Positions 15,085 through 59,587 of a DNA stretch of 64,000 nt are shown here, one piece after another. Below the pieces are notes generated by a model that ran no database searches, had not been told where the DNA came from, and saw only the letters and a list, made by a program, of their open reading frames with translations. The position numbers and the translations under genes were made by a program. Location of the stretch: contig BPIL01000012.1 in the NCBI GenBank assembly GCA_026004095.1, positions 1-64,000 of the forward strand, in the 5' to 3' direction. This DNA comes from Meiothermus sp. Lineage in GTDB: Bacteria > Deinococcota > Deinococci > Deinococcales > Thermaceae. How positions within the stretch are numbered: position 1 is the first letter of the stretch; each line of letters opens with the position of its first letter.

Positions 15085-15118
15085 ATGCTTGCAGAGCTAG
15101 CCTGAACGCTCCATGAAC
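15085..15118 (-). promoter_or_regulatory. SARP-type direct-repeat promoter 1 (subtilase)
   Basis: On the minus strand: heptamer GTTCATG (15118-15112), 4 nt GAGC, heptamer GTTCAGG (15107-15101), 10 nt, then AAGCAT (15090-15085) in the -10 position. The two heptamers start 11 bp apart. The first 14 nt, GTTCATGGAGCGTT, are identical to the sites at 52373 and 54287. The heptamers lie in the last codons of the regulator gene (RAFMERSG and stop). The -10 match is the weakest of the four sites. Confidence 0.62.
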
Positions 15119-17475
15119 GCCCGCAAGAGATCCCTGTGCTGCTGGGCCAGGTCGTAGTTTCCTGCATTCTCTGAGACCGCAATGGCCTCCCTCCAGACTT
15201 CGATATCCCCATCCAGTTCGGCCAAGTTACCCAGGGCCATTGCCAATACGTTGACCTCCCCGGCTTCTCGCGCGGCTTGAATGGCACGGTGGTAATAAAT
15301 CCGGGCAGTATCCAGTTCTTTTGTGATGTGATAAACAACGCCTATGTTGTTCTGAGCCAGGGCCACCTGTCTCAGATTGCCCGATTCCTGGGCAACCTGC
15401 TCGGCTTGCTGGTAACTTTCCAAGGCCTCCACGAAGCGCTTTTGTCGTTCAAATTCTTTCCCAAGGTTAATCAGTATTTGGGCTTGAACCCTGGGGTTGT
15501 CTTTTGCTATCTCAAATACTTCCCGGTAGACCTGCTCAACATCTTCTCCCATTCTTGAACGCACCACAGCCAGGTTGTTCAATGCGCCCAAACGCCGGTT
15601 TTCATCCCCCAAAGCCAGCCAGAGTGCAGCCGCACGACGGAACGCAGATGCCGCATTCTGGAAATCGCCCCTGGCATGAAAAATCAAGCCCAGCGTGTTC
15701 TGCGCCTCGGCCCTGGCCTCAATTCCACCCGACAGGGCTCGCTCAGCGCAGGCCTGGGCCTCGTCGGCCCGGCCCAAACGATGGTAGAGGGTGGCTTTGA
15801 GGGCCAGGTGCTCGGGAGTATCCGGCATGAAGCGCATCACTTCCAGGGCTTCTTTGTACAGGCCTGCTCGCTCGAAGGCGCGGGCCCGCAGCAGGGTGAT
15901 CTCGGGGTGGTTGGGTGCTTCCTTCAGTTCTTCGGCCGCACGCCTGGGGAAACCCCGGCGAATCAGCTCCTGGGCCCAGGTGATATAGGCCTGATGAAGC
16001 CGGGGTAAATCGGCATCCTCAAGCAGGGCCTTGGCGCGGCGATAAAGCGGGAGGGCCTGTTGAGGCTTGAGCAGGCGGGCCAGCCCCAGGCTGAGTCTGG
16101 CCTCGAGGGTGGGGCGCTCGGCGATGTAACGCCGGGCCGCCTCGCGCCCGAACACAGCCCCGCTGAGGTCAATCAGACCGGCTGAGAGGAGGGTATCCAC
16201 GGCCTGGGCCATCTCACTGGCGCTCAGATTGAGTGCCTGCCGCACCAAAAACAGATCCGGGGTTTCCAGCAAGGCCAGGCCCATGTAGACCTGGCGCGCC
16301 TGCTCGCTTAAGCCCAGGAGGCGGGCTTCCAGTGCGGTCTGGATGGGTTCTCCCCGCAACCAGGCCCCCACCAGGGCCGGGATGCCCCCGGTGGCCTCGA
16401 GGGCACCGGGAAAACCAGCCAGTTCTTCGGCGGTAAGGGGTTCTAGCTCCAGCAGCTTATCTATGGCAAAAGGCGGCGCATCCCGACCCGCAATCACCAC
16501 CCGTATGGGGGGACGCAGGCTGCGCAAACGGGTCAAAATCCGCTGGCTTTCGCCATCCATCTGCTCCCAGTCATCGAGCAAAAGGTTTTCGCGCAACTGC
16601 ACTGCCCGCCGCAGCAAAGCCTCCTCACCGCCCTGCAGGTTTTCCAGCAGGGGCTCGAGCGTGGCATAGGGCAGCCCAGACCGGGCTGGCAGGTAGAGCC
16701 AGCCCGTGCGCGCCGCCAGCTCGTGCAACAGGGCCGTTTTGCCAAGCCCGGCCCCACCCCGCACCCAGGCCCAGGCCCCCTCCTCCAGGGCCAGCAGGGC
16801 CGCCAGCTCGCGCTCCCGCCCCACCAGCTCCTGGCGCAGGCGGCCCCGCGCGGCCTGGCTCGAGCCCCCCAGGGTAATCCCCAGTTCCCTGGCCTCGCGC
16901 TCGAGGGTCTTGGCCAGGGGGTGCTCGCCCGCCAGCAGCAGGCGGTAGACCCTGGGCAGCTCCTCGGGTTCCAGGGGCGGCGCCCCGGCCACCCGGTAGG
17001 CCTGCTCAGCATAGCCCGCGGCCTCGGTAAAGTTGGCCTGGGTGGCCGCTTTCTCAGCCAGCACCAAGCAGGCCTGGCGCACCTCACGGGCCAGGCGCTC
17101 GCGCACCTCGTAGACCCACTCCTCGAGCTCGCTCCCCACCTCGCCCGATCGCAACCCCTCGGCAAAGGGCCCCTTGTACAGGGCGATGCCCTCCTCCCAA
17201 CGGCCCGCCCGCAGCGCATCCTGTAAGGCCAGGGCGTCGCACTCGAGGTCTACCCAGGCCCGGCTCTCGTCGCTGTAGGCCACCCCCAGCTTGCGCAGCT
17301 TGGCCAGCGCCACCGCCAACGAGTTCAGCGGATCGGCGGCCTCCGGCCAGAACAGCTCGGCCAGAAAGCGCCGGGGCTTGGGGCCTTCCAAAGCCAGGTA
17401 GGCCAGCAGCAACAGGGGCTTCTCACGCCCAAAGTTGCTCCCGGCCAGCCGCAACCCCCCCAGCGTGTGCAGCAT
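15097..17475 (-). CDS. SARP/BTAD-type transcriptional regulator with ATPase and TPR domains
   Basis: A 792-residue regulator. The N-terminus MLHTLGGLRLAGSNFGREKPLLLLAYLAL is the winged-helix start of the SARP (AfsR/DnrI) group, followed by a bacterial transcriptional activation domain (GRWEEGIALYKGPFAEGLR...VYEVRERLAREVRQACLVLAE). A P-loop NTPase follows (VRGGAGLGKTALLHELAA), then many TPR units in the C-terminal half. The ATG at 17475 is chosen because the conserved motif starts there. No ribosome site is seen, and a TACACT box ends 6 nt before the ATG, which would give a leaderless mRNA. Such proteins bind direct repeats next to a -10 box; four candidate sites are in this window. Confidence 0.85.
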   Translation of the reverse strand: MLHTLGGLRLAGSNFGREKPLLLLAYLALEGPKPRRFLAELFWPEAADPLNSLAVALAKLRKLGVAYSDESRAWVDLECDALALQDALRAGRWEEGIALYKGPFAEGLRSGEVGSELEEWVYEVRERLAREVRQACLVLAEKAATQANFTEAAGYAEQAYRVAGAPPLEPEELPRVYRLLLAGEHPLAKTLEREARELGITLGGSSQAARGRLRQELVGRERELAALLALEEGAWAWVRGGAGLGKTALLHELAARTGWLYLPARSGLPYATLEPLLENLQGGEEALLRRAVQLRENLLLDDWEQMDGESQRILTRLRSLRPPIRVVIAGRDAPPFAIDKLLELEPLTAEELAGFPGALEATGGIPALVGAWLRGEPIQTALEARLLGLSEQARQVYMGLALLETPDLFLVRQALNLSASEMAQAVDTLLSAGLIDLSGAVFGREAARRYIAERPTLEARLSLGLARLLKPQQALPLYRRAKALLEDADLPRLHQAYITWAQELIRRGFPRRAAEELKEAPNHPEITLLRARAFERAGLYKEALEVMRFMPDTPEHLALKATLYHRLGRADEAQACAERALSGGIEARAEAQNTLGLIFHARGDFQNAASAFRRAAALWLALGDENRRLGALNNLAVVRSRMGEDVEQVYREVFEIAKDNPRVQAQILINLGKEFERQKRFVEALESYQQAEQVAQESGNLRQVALAQNNIGVVYHITKELDTARIYYHRAIQAAREAGEVNVLAMALGNLAELDGDIEVWREAIAVSENAGNYDLAQQHRDLLRAFMERSG

Positions 17476-49757: not shown

Positions 49758-52055
49758 TCAGTTTATGCACACCGGAAGCTCGAAGCGCTGAGACATAACT
49801 ACCGGTCGCGGCCAGGCGCTGGAAGCAACCCCGTCCGAGACCTCGAGGTAGGCCACAAACTGCTGCTTGTACCCAGGGCAGGTGCTAACCGAGGGGAAAA
49901 GTGCGGCCAGGCTGGGGATGGTAACACCGGGCAGGGTCACGTTGAGATCGCCAGGAACGTTCACGCTACCCGAACCGCCAGGCACTGCTTTCTTGGGGCC
50001 GGGATACCCGCCCACCACCTCGGCAAGGTACCAGGCGTAGTTCAGGGTCGTGTTATCGGCGTCGAAAACCTTGCCCTCCAGCACGAGGTTGGTACTACCA
50101 ACGGTGGGGTTGACCGCTTTGTCTTTGGAAAAAGTCGGTATCGGACGGGTAATTTTGGCCAGCGGCGGCTGGTTGGTGCCGCGTGGATCGGGATCTCCCA
50201 CATTCACCAGCACAAACTTTTCCACCGCCACCCCCTGGGGGTTGGTGTATTTGAAGGTAATGCGCCGCCAGCCGGGCTGGTTGCTCAGGCGCATGCGCGT
50301 GGCGCAGCCGAGGCTGGGCACTTCGTCGCCCATATCGGCGTTGGTGTCGCGGTTGCGGCTTCGCCACTCACCACGGGTACAGTCGGGCACGCTCAGCGAT
50401 TTATCTTCCCAGACGGCCTGCAAGAACAGGTAGCGGCCCGCGGGTACGGCCTTGGCCTGCGGCAGTGTGGGGTTGAGGCTGGGCAGCGGCTGGATGATCT
50501 GGGCCAGCGGGGGGATGTCCTGCACCGTCAGGGTGGTGGTGGCGGTGGTGCTCAGGTTCAGGGAGTTGGTGGCCCTGGCCGTGAGGGTGCGGGGGCCCAG
50601 GGTAGAGAAGGTGTAGGAGACGCACTTACTGCTGGTGGGGGCGGTGCCCAGGGGGCCATCCGAACTCGAGCTGATCTGCACCGGCAGCGGGCCATCCTGC
50701 GGATCGAAAGCCGTGGCGCAGATGTAATAGGGCCGGTTGATAAAGGGGCCACCCTCGAAATTAACCAGACTCCCACCCCCAAAAACCACCGAGGGCGGGC
50801 CCGGCTGGGCCTGGGCGATGGTGCCCAGTTTTTCGTTGAAGATCTCGAGGTCGGTATCCAGGCGAAAGAGCCAGAGGTCGGCGTGGATGCCGATGCTGCC
50901 CTTGACCCCGGCGTCCAGCTTCCAGACCGGGTTGCCGGGCACGGTGGCGCTGAGCTCGAGATACGCCCCCAGCTTGGCATAAGGCCCCACCAGGCCGTAC
51001 AGCAACACATCCACCTTGCCGTTCATGGAGCCCGTGACCTTCAGGGTGCTGTTGGCCTGGGCGATGCCGGCCTCGAACTTTTTACCCAGGCTCGAGCAGT
51101 TCTTGAAGCCCCCCTTGTACTCAAAGCAGGCCTGCGCGTTGAGTTCCTCGCTGGCCCCCAGCACCAGGTTGGCCGAGACCGTGCCCTCGGCGCTGATGGT
51201 GATGTAGAGGTTGGGAACAAACACCACCGGCACCGGCCCCACAAACACGGTGATGGGCTTAAAGGTGTACTTGGCAAGCTCGTACTCCTTCTTGATGGTT
51301 TTACCCAGGGTGGAGAAGATCTTTACGCTGGCGTTGTGCTTGATGCCAAAAGCCGCCTTGAAGTAGACCCCGTTTGGATAAACCGGAATACCCAGCGCCC
51401 TTTTCCAGGTAACACTGGCCGAAAAACCGCTCTGTAGGTCAAAAAATACCTTGCCCTCGGCCCGCACCTGATCCAGGGTGGTGGAAAGATTGCCGTCTTC
51501 ATCGTAGATGATTTCGTTGAAGGCAAAGTCGAGGACATTCATGGGCTGTACGCCCGGCTGGGCCTGGTAGCGGGTCTGGCCGTTGGCAAACCGAACCCCC
51601 GGCGAAAGACCCTCGGCCTGCACCAGGTCGCTGGCCCCCAGGTTCTTCTGGAAGCTGGCCTCGCCCTCGGTGATGGCCTCGGCCAGACCGGCCTCCTCGG
51701 CCTCCACCACCACCTGCTCGCTGCCCGCGGTGATTTGCTTTACCTTGAACAAAAAGCCATAGGGCGCATTAGGGCCCGGCTCGCTGGCCAGAATCTGGCC
51801 GACCTCGAGCTCCCCCAACTGCGGGCTACCCGCCTTGAAGGTTAGGGTGGCCTGGCACCGCGGGCGGCTTGGGTTGGTGTACTCGAGGCACTCGTTCAGG
51901 TTCTTGATAACCAGGCCCTCGAGGCTCTCGCGGGTCTCGAGGCTCAGCACCCGGGTCTGCGGGGAAATTTTGGGCTCGATAAATGCCGGCTCCTGGGGCC
52001 CCCTCCCGCAAGCTACAAGAATTCCTGTCAGAAACAAAGCAATTAACGTTCGCAT
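49758..52055 (-). CDS. Large secreted lipoprotein of unknown function
   Basis: A 765-residue protein with lipoprotein signal MRTLIALFLTGILVACG (Cys16). The middle part (ASVTWKRALGIPVYPNGVYF, ISAEGTVSANLVLGASEEL, YLELSATVPGNPVWKLDAGVKG) is beta-rich with two Cys. The C-terminal 300 residues look like repeated Ig/PKD-type modules (PRTLTARATNSLNLSTTATTTLTV, LAKITRPIPTF). I do not recognise the family. It is alone on the minus strand and divergent from the propeller lipoprotein. Confidence 0.75.
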   Translation of the reverse strand: MRTLIALFLTGILVACGRGPQEPAFIEPKISPQTRVLSLETRESLEGLVIKNLNECLEYTNPSRPRCQATLTFKAGSPQLGELEVGQILASEPGPNAPYGFLFKVKQITAGSEQVVVEAEEAGLAEAITEGEASFQKNLGASDLVQAEGLSPGVRFANGQTRYQAQPGVQPMNVLDFAFNEIIYDEDGNLSTTLDQVRAEGKVFFDLQSGFSASVTWKRALGIPVYPNGVYFKAAFGIKHNASVKIFSTLGKTIKKEYELAKYTFKPITVFVGPVPVVFVPNLYITISAEGTVSANLVLGASEELNAQACFEYKGGFKNCSSLGKKFEAGIAQANSTLKVTGSMNGKVDVLLYGLVGPYAKLGAYLELSATVPGNPVWKLDAGVKGSIGIHADLWLFRLDTDLEIFNEKLGTIAQAQPGPPSVVFGGGSLVNFEGGPFINRPYYICATAFDPQDGPLPVQISSSSDGPLGTAPTSSKCVSYTFSTLGPRTLTARATNSLNLSTTATTTLTVQDIPPLAQIIQPLPSLNPTLPQAKAVPAGRYLFLQAVWEDKSLSVPDCTRGEWRSRNRDTNADMGDEVPSLGCATRMRLSNQPGWRRITFKYTNPQGVAVEKFVLVNVGDPDPRGTNQPPLAKITRPIPTFSKDKAVNPTVGSTNLVLEGKVFDADNTTLNYAWYLAEVVGGYPGPKKAVPGGSGSVNVPGDLNVTLPGVTIPSLAALFPSVSTCPGYKQQFVAYLEVSDGVASSAWPRPVVMSQRFELPVCIN

Positions 52056-52372: not shown

Positions 52373-52406
52373 GTTCATGGAGCGTTAAGGGGCGTTTCAC
52401 TATCCT
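52373..52406 (+). promoter_or_regulatory. SARP-type direct-repeat promoter 2 (propeller lipoprotein)
   Basis: GTTCATG (52373-52379), GAGC, GTTAAGG (52384-52390), 10 nt, TATCCT (52401-52406) as the -10 box. The heptamers start 11 bp apart and cover the place of a -35 box. Between second heptamer and -10 the sequence GGCGTTTCAC is nearly that of the site at 54287. Confidence 0.7.
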
Positions 52407-54286: not shown

Positions 54287-54320
54287 GTTCATGGAGCGTT
54301 AATGGGTGTTTCGTTAATCT
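54287..54320 (+). promoter_or_regulatory. SARP-type direct-repeat promoter 3 (NHL-like lipoprotein)
   Basis: GTTCATG (54287-54293), GAGC, GTTAATG (54298-54304), 10 nt GGTGTTTCGT, TAATCT (54315-54320). Same spacing as the other three sites. It is 48 bp before the lipoprotein ATG. Confidence 0.7.
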
Positions 54321-55826: not shown

Positions 55827-55860
55827 GTTCATGGGGTGTTCAACCCGGCTCTTCTACACT
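55827..55860 (+). promoter_or_regulatory. SARP-type direct-repeat promoter 4 (second subtilase)
   Basis: GTTCATG (55827-55833), GGGT, GTTCAAC (55838-55844), 10 nt, TACACT (55855-55860). The spacer differs from the other sites but the geometry is identical. The subtilase ATG is 45 bp downstream. Confidence 0.68.
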
Positions 55861-55904: not shown

Positions 55905-56349
55905 ATGAAACATCTTTGGAAGCTGGCTCTGGTAAGCGTGCTTGTGCTGATAGCAGCCTGCAACGGGCAAAGGCCAGCCGGAACCGCTCAGATTGTCGTA
56001 GACAATGCCCTTACACCTACCCAGGCTACGGTACCCGGCCCGGACGGCCCACGCCCGGTGGCCCGCATGGTAGGTGAGAGTGGTATCGCAATGGATTTTG
56101 TTCTTGGAGAGCTGATAATCAGCACCGACGACCCTACCAAGCTCAACGCCTTCCTTAGCCGCTGGGGTGGGCAGGTGCTGAGTGAGACCGAAAAGGTGGG
56201 TGACGCACCCAAAACATATCAAGTGCGGCTCAACCCTTCCGGTGCCCAGGTGGAGGCCATACTCCAGCGGCTCAACCAGTCGCTACCAGATTTGAAGGGA
56301 AAGTTTAGCACCTCGAGCCCAGAAGCAGCCCAGCTTTTGGCGGTAGCCC
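55905..56349 (+). pseudogene. Second subtilase lipoprotein, 5' part (signal and prodomain)
   Basis: 148 codons of a subtilase precursor: lipoprotein signal MKHLWKLALVSVLVLIAACN and an N-terminal prodomain (FVLGELIISTDDPTKLNAFL, TYQVRLNPSGAQVEAILQRL) like that of fervidolysin-type proteases. The frame is cut by an ISAs1-like element after base 56349. Removing it with one 10-bp target copy joins this part in frame to 57504-59587, giving 842 residues. GGAGGAAG precedes the ATG. Confidence 0.9.
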
Positions 56350-57493
56350 CAGACTTGACCGCTATGCCGCATAGAGCCCCAGGAAGCGCAGGGCGGAGAG
56401 GGGGTTGAAGGAGAAGATTTCTAGGGCTGCCTTCTTCTCCCTCACCCCCTCTCGGTGAAGCATGGAGACCAGGAAGGCCCGCAGCACCGCTAGCGCCCAC
56501 GCCCCCACCCCCCGCACCTGACAGGCATCCTCCCCAAAGCACACGTCCCGCACCCAGAAAGACCGGTTCTCCACCTCCCAGCGGGAAAGCAACAGGCTCC
56601 CCAGCCGCTTTGCGTCCGCTACCTCCGGCCCCAGGCTGGTGAGGGCGTAGCTCACCGTCCGCCGCACCTCCCCCGTCCCCTTGTGCCTCACCTCCCGCCA
56701 AAGCCGCACCACCTGCCTGGCCCCAGGGAAGGCCCGCACCTCTTCCGGCAGGTAGGGGGAAGCCCAAACCCGGTAGGTCCACACCTCCCCGTCCCGCACC
56801 CCACTCCAGGTCGCCTCCGTCTCCCCGGGAAGACGCCTTCCCGCCATCCCCTTGAACACCTCCAGGGCCCACTCCAAAAGTTCCCCCTGGTTCCCCTTCA
56901 GGACCAAGAGATAGTCCCCCCTTTTTTCCGCACCCGGGCCGCCACCTCAGGGTACAGGTACCCCGCGTCCCCCACCACCACCTTGCCCTCCAGCTCCCTC
57001 GCCTCCAAACGGTCCAGAAGCTCCAGGAAGGCCTTCTCCTCCCTCCCTTCCGCCCGGGCCTGGGCCAGGGTGGTATGGAGGTGCAGGGCCAGGACCTCCA
57101 CCAGCTTGACCTGGGGGCTTTTCCCCTTGCCGCTTCCCCGCAGGTGCTTCCCGTCCACCACCAGGACCTCCCCAAGGTCGGCTTCGGGGAAGACCTGGCC
57201 AAGGGCCGCCTGGAGCTTCTCAGGATCCAGGCGGTGAAGGAGAAGGGTGATGGCGGTGTGGCCTGGGGCCTTGCGCAGGCCCAGGTGGGGCAAGAGGTGG
57301 GGGTTGGCGCGGGCAAAGCGTTCCACGCCGCGCAGGGAGTCCACGCGGCTCAGGAAGGCCACCAGGATGAGGGCCAGAAGGCCCCAAAGGGGGTACTGCC
57401 GGTTGTGGGCCCGAGGGTCCGGGACCTGGGATAGCGCCTGGCGCAGAGTCATGATCTTTCTCTACCCCAAGGGCTGTATATCGGTCAAGTCTG
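56350..57493 (-). mobile_element. ISAs1-like insertion sequence
   Basis: A 1144-bp element with perfect 12-bp inverted ends (CAGACTTGACCG) and a 10-bp target duplication GCGGTAGCCC at 56340-56349 and 57494-57503. It carries a transposase in two overlapping frames on the minus strand. The family is assigned by the transposase; 8-10 bp duplications are typical of ISAs1. Confidence 0.9.
56362..57452 (-). CDS. ISAs1-family transposase in two overlapping frames
   Basis: The first frame (57452-56898) starts MTLRQALSQVPDPRAHNRQY, with VLVVDGKHLRGS as first catalytic Asp region. The second (56907-56362) continues with LKGNQGELLEWALEVF and ends at the C-terminus with LLSRWEVENRSFWVRDV. At the junction lies A6G6 (minus strand 56927-56916). 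A -1 slip there would read KKRGDYLLVLKGNQ, which is the continuous sequence expected for the family. So the full product of about 360 residues may need ribosomal frameshifting or polymerase slippage; a simple inactivating mutation is the alternative. Confidence 0.8.
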
Positions 57494-59587
57494 GCGGTAG
57501 CCCTGAGCGAAGCCAACCAGGAGAAGATGACCGTCACGCCTAACTTTGTGGTGCAACCTGCTGCCATTGCAGACGGCATCACCACCGAGGCCCCCACCCG
57601 CTCGAGCCTTTCCCCAGCCGATATTCCCTACACCCCCAACGCCTTCAACTGGACTTATATGAACCGGGGCAGCGCCCAGGACATCGGGGTAGGCGAGGCC
57701 TGGCGGCTGCTCGAGCGGGCCGGACGCTTGAGCAACAAGGTTCGCATCATGATTTTGGATGGTGGCTTCGCACTAAACAACGACTTCCCCGCAACCCGTC
57801 AGGTGGTGGGGAGCTGGAACGAGCCCAACCTACTCCAGTGCTCTGGGGGCAACTCCTGCCCTTGGCACGGTACCCACGTCACCACCGCAGCCATGGGTCT
57901 TCCAGACAATGGCTTCGGGGTTGCTGGCCCAGCAGGCCCGGTTGGAGAGCTTTTGGCAGTTCCTTTTCAAGGAGACTTTATTGGTATCATCTCCACCCTC
58001 GAGCGCATCATTACCGCTACCCTGTTCGGGAACCCCAAGATCATCAACATGAGCTTTGGTTTTGAGCTTGACCTGGGCTGGGACATCGCAGTTAAGGTGG
58101 CTTGCTTAGGGTTATGCCCCTCTCCCAGCGAGGTGATGGATGGCTTTGCGGTAGCAGTTTCAGCAACCGGCAAACTCCTGTTTGCTGCTGCTGGCAACGA
58201 GGGTAAGGACGTAGACAACGGTGGTGGCATCGAGGGTTCAACCCATATCCCTTGTGAACTGCGCTCGGTAATCTGCGTAGGCGGGATGGCCCACGACAGC
58301 ACCGCCCGCTACACCTTCTCCAACTTCGGAACCAAGCGAGACGATAACAGCGTGGATATCTATGGGCCTTACTGGGTATGGGCCGGCCCGGATCCTGACA
58401 GCCCTGCCAATGAGGCCCGGCTTCGGGCAGGCACCAGCTACTCCTCTCCCTTCGTGGCCGGTGTAGCCGCGCTGGTCTGGGCTGCCAACCCCTCCCTGAG
58501 CGCCAGTCAGGTCTGGGCTATCCTGCGCGACACGGCCCATGTGGGGGGGGTGGGGGTCGGAGGCTTTGAGCGCCGGGTAAACGCTTTTGCAGCGGTCTCC
58601 AGGGCGCTGGAAGTGGGCAGCAGCGGCCCCAGCGTGGCCTTGAGCGCTGCCAGCACTGCCAACCTCAACCGCGAGTGGAGCATCACCGCCAACGTTACGG
58701 ACTTTGCCGGGAACAACTGCCCCCCTGTCTTCTGCCCGCTAACCTTTGACCCAGCCCCAACCCGAACCGTTGGCAACACCGCCTACTATCGCTTCAATAC
58801 TGCTGAGAGCCGCACCATACGGGTAACCACCCGCGATCTGCTGGGCCGTGAGGGCAGCGCCACGCGCGAGGTCGCAGTCATCAACTCGCCGCCGGTGGTT
58901 CGAATTGACGCACCCTCCAATGGCGACTCGTTCTACCAGGGCCAGCCTGTCAACCTAGTCGGCACTGCCACCGACCTCAACGAAGGCCCCGACCCCGGCC
59001 CTGGCCCCATTGCGTGCCGCTGGGAGGGCAGCGCCGCCGACGGTTTCCCCCGCACAGGCTGCAACCTCTCGGTTACCTTTAGCACGACCGGCTCGCGCAC
59101 CCTTACGCTTCGGGCCACCGACCCCCAGGGCCTGAGCAGCACCACCAACGTAACCATCAACATTACGCCCCCGCCGGCCAACCTGCCCCCCAACATTAAC
59201 ACCTTCGGCCCGCTGTCCCCTTCAGAACCCAACTACGCTGGCGGATTCTCCTGGAACACCACCTTTACCGCCCCCGCCAGTGCCATCGACCCCGAAGGCG
59301 ACAACCCCATCACCTACATCTGGCGGGCCACCTCCTACCGCCCCGATAACGATAGCGAGGTCTGGCGCAGCAACGTGGTGCTGAGCACCTCCACCACCAG
59401 CGGCAACCTGAACTGGACACCGAGCAACAACAACCCCAGCAATCTGCTAGGTGATTTTTCCACCTTTGGTAACGCCTGCTACAACGGCCAACTGGTGCGT
59501 CTCGAGCTGGTCGCCCGCGATTCCCTGGGCAACGAGAGTACCCGGCGTTTCGCCGCCATTCGGATATACCGCTGCATCTTAATGTAG
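57494..59587 (+). pseudogene. Second subtilase, catalytic and C-terminal part
   Basis: The 3' part of the disrupted S8 protease. The catalytic triad is complete: Asp in VRIMILDGGFALNN, His in WHGTHVTTAAMG, Ser in GTSYSSPFVAGVAAL. Cys pairs LLQCSGGNSC and CLGLC are present. The last 300 residues form Ig/PKD-like modules (PVVRIDAPSNGDSFYQGQPV, TTGSRTLTLRATDPQGLS). Without signal and prodomain it cannot be exported as a normal precursor. An internal ATG at 57527 exists but no good ribosome site was noticed. Confidence 0.9.

Follow-up and report, generated by a model that had tools for sequence, protein, structure and literature searches.

A putative SARP-type regulon of surface lipoproteins and subtilases in Meiothermus, marked by heptamer repeats of fixed geometry

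Results

The window analysed here is a stretch of 64,000 nucleotides (nt) from contig BPIL01000012.1 of the Meiothermus sp. assembly GCA_026004095.1 (2.77 Mb, 84% complete). It encodes a SARP-like regulator and contains four sites of common geometry, each preceding a gene for a lipoprotein-type protein: GTTCATG, a four-nucleotide spacer, a second GTT-type heptamer, ten nucleotides and a -10-like hexamer (Table 1). SARPs are known mainly as activators of actinomycete antibiotic clusters. A preliminary description of this DNA had proposed a small SARP-type regulon, and all four sites read exactly as it described them, far above chance. With at most one mismatch, GTTCATG-N4-GTTNA occurs five times in the window, against 0.34 expected from dinucleotide shuffles, and none of 100 shuffles reached five. 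The exact pattern occurs five times in the assembly, at the four window sites and once on contig C24, against none for the reversed-pattern control. A search with a longer form of the motif and up to two mismatches runs into background in this genome (13 versus 7 for the control).

Site 1 overlaps the final codons and the stop codon of the regulator gene. In the 11 distinct sites of its class, positions 2 and 6 of the hexamer are always A and T, and position 1 is C (nine sites) or A (two sites). The C24 site, GTTCATGgccgGTTCAGGcttgGTTAAGAggggggccgcTACATT, lies between a terminator-like inverted repeat and a gene for a lipoprotein-type protein of 391 amino acids (aa). Counted from the first base of the heptamers, predicted gene starts lie 78-113 nt downstream at the four window sites; the corresponding distance at the C24 site is 90 nt.

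Table 1. Sites and associated genes in the window, and the fifth site of the same genome.
Feature	Position	Strand	Description
Site 1	15118-15085	minus	GTTCATG gagc GTTCAGG N10 AAGCAT; heptamers 15118-15112, 15107-15101; -10-like AAGCAT 15090-15085
Site 2	52373-52406	plus	GTTCATG gagc GTTAAGG N10 TATCCT; heptamers 52373-52379, 52384-52390; -10-like 52401-52406
Site 3	54287-54320	plus	GTTCATG gagc GTTAATG N10 TAATCT; heptamers 54287-54293, 54298-54304; -10-like 54315-54320
Site 4	55827-55860	plus	GTTCATG gggt GTTCAAC N10 TACACT; heptamers 55827-55833, 55838-55844; -10-like 55855-55860
Fifth site	G000:C24, locus L005		three heptamers GTTCATG-GTTCAGG-GTTAAGA, then 10 nt, -10-like TACATT
SARP-like regulator, 792 aa	15097..17475	minus	winged helix and BTAD-like fold, P-loop ATPase region, TPR repeats
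Target 1, subtilase with lipobox-type start, 544 aa	13392..15026	minus	Peptidase_S8, E 2e-25; start 92 nt past first heptamer base
Target 2, lipoprotein-type with bacterial Ig-like domains, 579 aa	52486..54225	plus	Big_7, E 3.2e-10; Big_5, E 1.1e-8
Target 3, lipoprotein-type with propeller-like repeats, 442 aa	54368..55696	plus	Reg_prop, SGL, NHL, E 6.8e-9 to 9.7e-8
Target 4, 5' part, start of subtilase lipoprotein gene	55905..56408	plus	start 78 nt past first heptamer base; frame enters transposase gene
Target 4, remainder, subtilase domain	57527..59587	plus	Peptidase_S8, E 1.7e-23
Transposase open reading frames, two overlapping, interrupting target 4	56362..57452	minus	DDE_Tnp_1_assoc, E 1e-14, and DDE_Tnp_1, E 5.4e-7, in 56898-57452

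Exact core sites number 40 in the 18 genomes of the genus, the genome studied included, against two for the control. The motif is present in 12 of the 17 relatives (13 of 18 with our own genome). Orthologues of the regulator, 72-97% identical, were found in ten of these 17 genomes, and all ten have sites. Overall, sites occur in 11 of 11 genomes with a window-type regulator (own genome included) and in two of the seven without one. Five relatives (G002, G003, G006, G013 and G015) have the subtilase on one flank of the regulator gene and sites on the opposite flank; in two (G008, G009) one lipoprotein-type gene lies in between. In five of these relatives' loci, only 28 nt separate the start of the regulator from the beginning of the divergent site. 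It is at a contig end in G004, and in G011 the sites are split over two contigs. The first divergent gene is missing in G013, where the conserved site remains (L059, position 10999) and the usual 440-aa lipoprotein gene has apparently been lost. The nearest divergent-side exact site is less than 3 kb from the regulator in eight of the ten orthologous loci; the regulator and the divergent targets are about 35 kb apart in the window (17476-52372) and about 41 kb apart in G016, whose regulator is 97% identical.

Outside the genus, the exact GTTCATG core is no signal: it matches at 20 places and its reversed control at 23. This heptamer is therefore a property of this genus, and relatives use others. 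Near more distant homologues the heptamer is GTTCAGR/GTTAAGR, CTTAACG or GGTCAGR, and the 11-bp period and the 10 nt to a -10-like hexamer are kept. The 3' junctions of shorter paralogues read, for example, GTTCAGA-N4-GTTAAGA-N10-(TGC)TANNNT. Other junctions are GTTCAGG-N4-ATTCAGA-N10-TACTGT (L098), GTTCAGG-N4-GTTCAGA-N10-TATACT (L134) and GGTCAGA-N4-GGTCAGG-N10-TAGACT (L097). The repeats often straddle the stop codon of the regulator gene, which in the short family is the TAA within GTTAAG. GGTCAGG-N4-GGTCAGA-N10-CAGACT (L095) and GGTCAGG-N4-AGTCAGG-N10-CAGTCT (L096) fall within the final codons of the regulator gene. In L092-L094, three homologues with 54-57% identity, the junction reads CGTAACG or CATAACG-N4-CTTAACG-N10-TACATC or TACAAC, so that position 6 of the hexamer is not T. 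The gap to the hexamer is 9 in L117 and L118, and no convincing site was seen at the SARP 3' junctions of L100, L119, L128 and L135.

The geometry was counted in several ways. Across the 433 kb of 34 loci selected by SARP homology, heptamer pairs with a period of 11 number 33, triples being counted twice, and other periods from 7 to 24 number 0-2, except 22 with eight; L107, L109 and L121 were dropped as duplicates or near-duplicates, and L101 was already known to hold a site. A test that presupposes no heptamer found a period-11 repeat with YANNNT at gap 10 in 31 of 41 SARP 3' junctions (12 near-identical ones having been removed from 53), a count in which the sliding window blurs the gap. 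Other periods gave 0-3 at gap 10, letter shuffles a mean of 1.7 (maximum 6) and Markov resampling a mean of 1.9 (maximum 7). Among 60 distinct last repeats (75 before identical ones were merged, with repeats followed by another heptamer omitted and L107, L109, L121, L132 and L133 dropped), gap 10 leads to TANNNT in 42, other gaps giving at most four. For NANNNT the figure is 54, other gaps giving at most seven except gap 21 with 14. Of the 60 distinct sites, 48 precede a lipoprotein-type start, three another signal-like start and eight neither, and one is without a frame; the background is 41 of 384, gene calling and the lipobox rule being simple scripts. P values for these and the following counts are too small because the genomes are related.

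The strict GTTMAGR form occurs at 46 places in 31 of the 111 genomes searched in the phylum, against none for the reversed control. A SARP N-terminus lies within 6.5 kb of 35 of the 45 places examined, and 33 of the 45 precede a lipoprotein-like start, compared with 69 of 1800 random positions; both counts leave out L132, L133, L134 and L116, and one place (G027:C39:26405) is in no fetched locus. A strong SARP homologue (E<=1e-30) is encoded in 41 genomes, of which 22 contain the form; it is present in one of 20 others and, among these 20, in none of the eight that have no SARP homologue at all. The CTTAACG pattern occurs at eight places in 61 genomes (control, none), three of which are SARP junctions. 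Two more (L163, L164) are beside another SARP-like gene, whose recognition helix is unlike that of the three CTTAACG-type regulators, and at L158, L159 and L161 no SARP homologue was found within their 2.7-3.0 kb. At L163 and L164 (G026 and G031, genus g5), the promoter is divergent, reads CTTAACG-N4-CTTAACG-N10-TA and precedes the gene of a protein that is probably exported.

The recognition helix varies along with the heptamer. It is NSLAVALAKLRK in most GTTCATG-type regulators (with variants S and V), mostly NSLSVALTQLR or SQLR in the GTTCAGR type, and NSLS..L[TS]RLRK in the GGTCAGR type (L095-L097). K and H at two positions are seen only in the three CTTAACG-type regulators out of 34, which read NSLKVVLHRLR or HKLR. 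These pairings hold as associations within clades and do not amount to a tally of independent changes. L101 combines the helix SRLRS with a GTTAAGA-type site; therefore, an R at that place does not by itself determine the heptamer.

The regulator start at 17475 agrees with its homologues. The predicted model (pLDDT 89, a confidence score) has an N-terminal OmpR-type winged helix followed by a BTAD fold, and the best PDB matches to its N-terminal part are AfsR and EmbR, with 8k60 as the top Foldseek match and about 18-20% identity in the aligned fold. The C-terminal part matches TPR_12 (E 2.7e-16), and the match to AAA_16 is below the cut-off (E 0.0034; 18.3 bits versus 32.6). We could detect no match to the BTAD profile PF03704 in the regulator at E<=10; the profile matches nine of 34 aligned homologues (best E 7.6e-7), and the C24 paralogue scores 22.3 bits against a cut-off of 22.1. 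PDB sequence searches with a SARP alignment and one member of the short family returned no SARP chain, but the fold comparison did find SARPs. In G002, a second SARP-like gene (L061, 2865-6152; 1095 aa, BTAD-positive with E 4.4e-16) adjoins the regulon, and the regulator homologue in G022:C3 (L067) appears split into two pieces in separate frames.

The preliminary description had assigned the four sites to exported proteins, namely two subtilases and two propeller lipoproteins. The two subtilases and one propeller-like protein stand, but the second propeller is not established, the beta-propeller match of target 2 being very weak (E 0.017). All four in fact look like lipoproteins: judged by eye, a lipobox-type signal is present at the start of all five target proteins of the genome. 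The subtilase gene starting at 55905 is split by a transposase gene, whose frame 56362-56907 has no Pfam match; its counterparts in relatives are frames of 826-843 aa with the same start, before which site 4 is conserved. Site 3 is likewise conserved, before lipoprotein-type genes of 439-460 aa in L048, L049, L050, L056, L060 and L061. This bears out conservation upstream of orthologues, on which the regulon proposal had been made to depend, in a comparison for which many of the relatives' loci were selected because they hold GTTCATG. Among 25 target proteins chosen across loci, Pfam identified ten subtilases, and the remainder are mixed or without a match. A 765-aa protein (49758-52055) adjoins the targets; no Pfam match and no heptamer site before it were found, and its apparent orthologues in L048, L050 and L060 start with a lipobox.

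Discussion

The four sites are, with high probability, SARP-type activator promoters bound by the regulator encoded in the window. This reading, already put forward in the preliminary description, is supported by the predicted AfsR/EmbR-like fold of the regulator, by the conservation of the sites and by their linkage to SARP genes, and binding of the regulator to the sites is very probably a correct prediction. Two protomers would very likely sit side by side on one face of the DNA, one per heptamer, at the -35 position, and would recruit RNA polymerase to the weak -10 hexamer 10 nt downstream. Surface lipoproteins, subtilases among them, would be switched on together, and a signal may enter through the regulator's ATPase and TPR parts. 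Binding, activation rather than repression, and such a signal are inferred; the divergent site close to the regulator start in five relatives suggests that the regulator may also control its own gene.

Heptamers repeated every 11 bp are also bound by OmpR-family proteins, and the sites could instead be PHO-type boxes recognised by a PhoB/PhoP response regulator. The PHO box has an equal 11-nt repeat unit and the Streptomyces heptamer GTTCACC is similar (excerpts of PMC6988585); Streptomyces PhoP and AfsR sites overlap, according to literature available in part. We consider this explanation very unlikely. In 20 pstS-profile loci from 18 genomes (seven over the cut-off) there is no repeat scoring 12 or more, compared with 19.8-25.8 for the training sites, and the two best, at 10.4 and 11.6, are without a -10-like hexamer at gap 10. 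The sites are located at SARP genes and vary with the SARP clade, and pstS of the genome studied has CCTGACA-N4-CCTGACA instead. The latter direct repeat, upstream of pstS at 6960-6977 of L131, probably serves this genome as a PHO box.

Another SARP-family protein of the same genome, either the paralogue on C24 or a BTAD protein on C6, C8 or C11, could also regulate the window sites, in place of the window regulator or alongside it; BTAD matches are indeed present on all four contigs. Cross-regulation by the C24 paralogue is possible because its site mixes both heptamer types. Nevertheless, exact GTTCATG sites track the window-type regulator across the genus and flank its gene in relatives, which makes this an unlikely explanation. 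Finally, the likeness of the sites might have no regulatory role and simply be left over from a time when paralogous lipoprotein genes were duplicated together with their upstream regions. Sites 2 and 3 are alike beyond the heptamers, sharing the gagc spacer and a later GTTATG stretch. Against this, targets of different kinds and other genera show the same period and gap with variable letters in between, and a purely functionless duplication explains neither why the gap is fixed nor why the heptamer changes. Heptamer codons in the regulator gene are rare synonyms, with a mean relative usage of 0.24 (79 codons) versus 0.51 (1011 codons), a test that is partly circular in that the pattern was required. 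We regard functionless duplication as very unlikely, and as the least plausible of these explanations.

Returning to control by SARP-like regulators, we tentatively suggest, at somewhat less than even odds, that Deinococcota carry several parallel cassettes. Each would consist of a SARP-like regulator, with or without an ATPase part, and adjoining surface lipoproteins and subtilases, and each clade would have its own heptamer 'address' (GTTCATG, GTTCAGR/GTTAAGR, CTTAACG or GGTCAGR) in the fixed 11-bp/10-nt frame, many with the next promoter inside the regulator's last codons and stop. If so, genome sequences by themselves could be enough to read the code linking SARP regulators to DNA. The clear DNA code of this SARP-like family, located beside surface-protein genes in a distant thermophilic lineage, would make targets predictable genome-wide and match naturally occurring recognition-helix variants to their DNA sites, and the heat-stable proteins of these organisms are convenient in vitro. 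A search of one open library, in sources available in part, found no description of such a SARP regulon in Meiothermus, Thermus or Deinococcus.

Regulators with a BTAD or a SARP-family part are already known from Thermus and Deinococcus. DnrS of Thermus thermophilus likewise bears a BTAD, at its C-terminus behind an N-terminal GAF domain; it controls denitrification, and no heptamer repeats are described for it in the available part of PMC5748679. Deide_19260 of Deinococcus deserti, a response regulator whose DNA-binding part belongs to the SARP family, has an N-terminal receiver domain and is induced after gamma irradiation, with no target sites described in the available part of PMC3564903. 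EmbR of Mycobacterium tuberculosis differs in carrying a C-terminal FHA domain where the present regulator has an ATPase region and TPR repeats.

The layout of the regulator is similar to that of AfsR from Streptomyces coelicolor, a large SARP with NOD and TPR domains. According to excerpts of PMC10936776, the afs box extends from -40 to -19 and is made up of two 11-bp repeats, TTCAGC occupies -38 to -33, and AfsR contacts cover the first eight base pairs of each repeat. By analogy, the present sites appear to fit this arrangement closely: TTCAGC is close to GTTCAGG, and a poor -35 and a suboptimal -10 are common to both, as far as the excerpts go. The same excerpts give 8 bp from the 3' repeat to the -10 element for SARPs, compared with 10 nt from the last heptamer here, and the repeat ends may be drawn differently. 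Unlike the afs box, the repeats described here may straddle the regulator's stop codon. AfsR controls afsS and antibiotic synthesis, whereas the targets here are adjacent surface lipoproteins and subtilases. SARP-type control itself is already known; what appears new is its predicted extension to surface lipoproteins and subtilases, a reading that is well supported.
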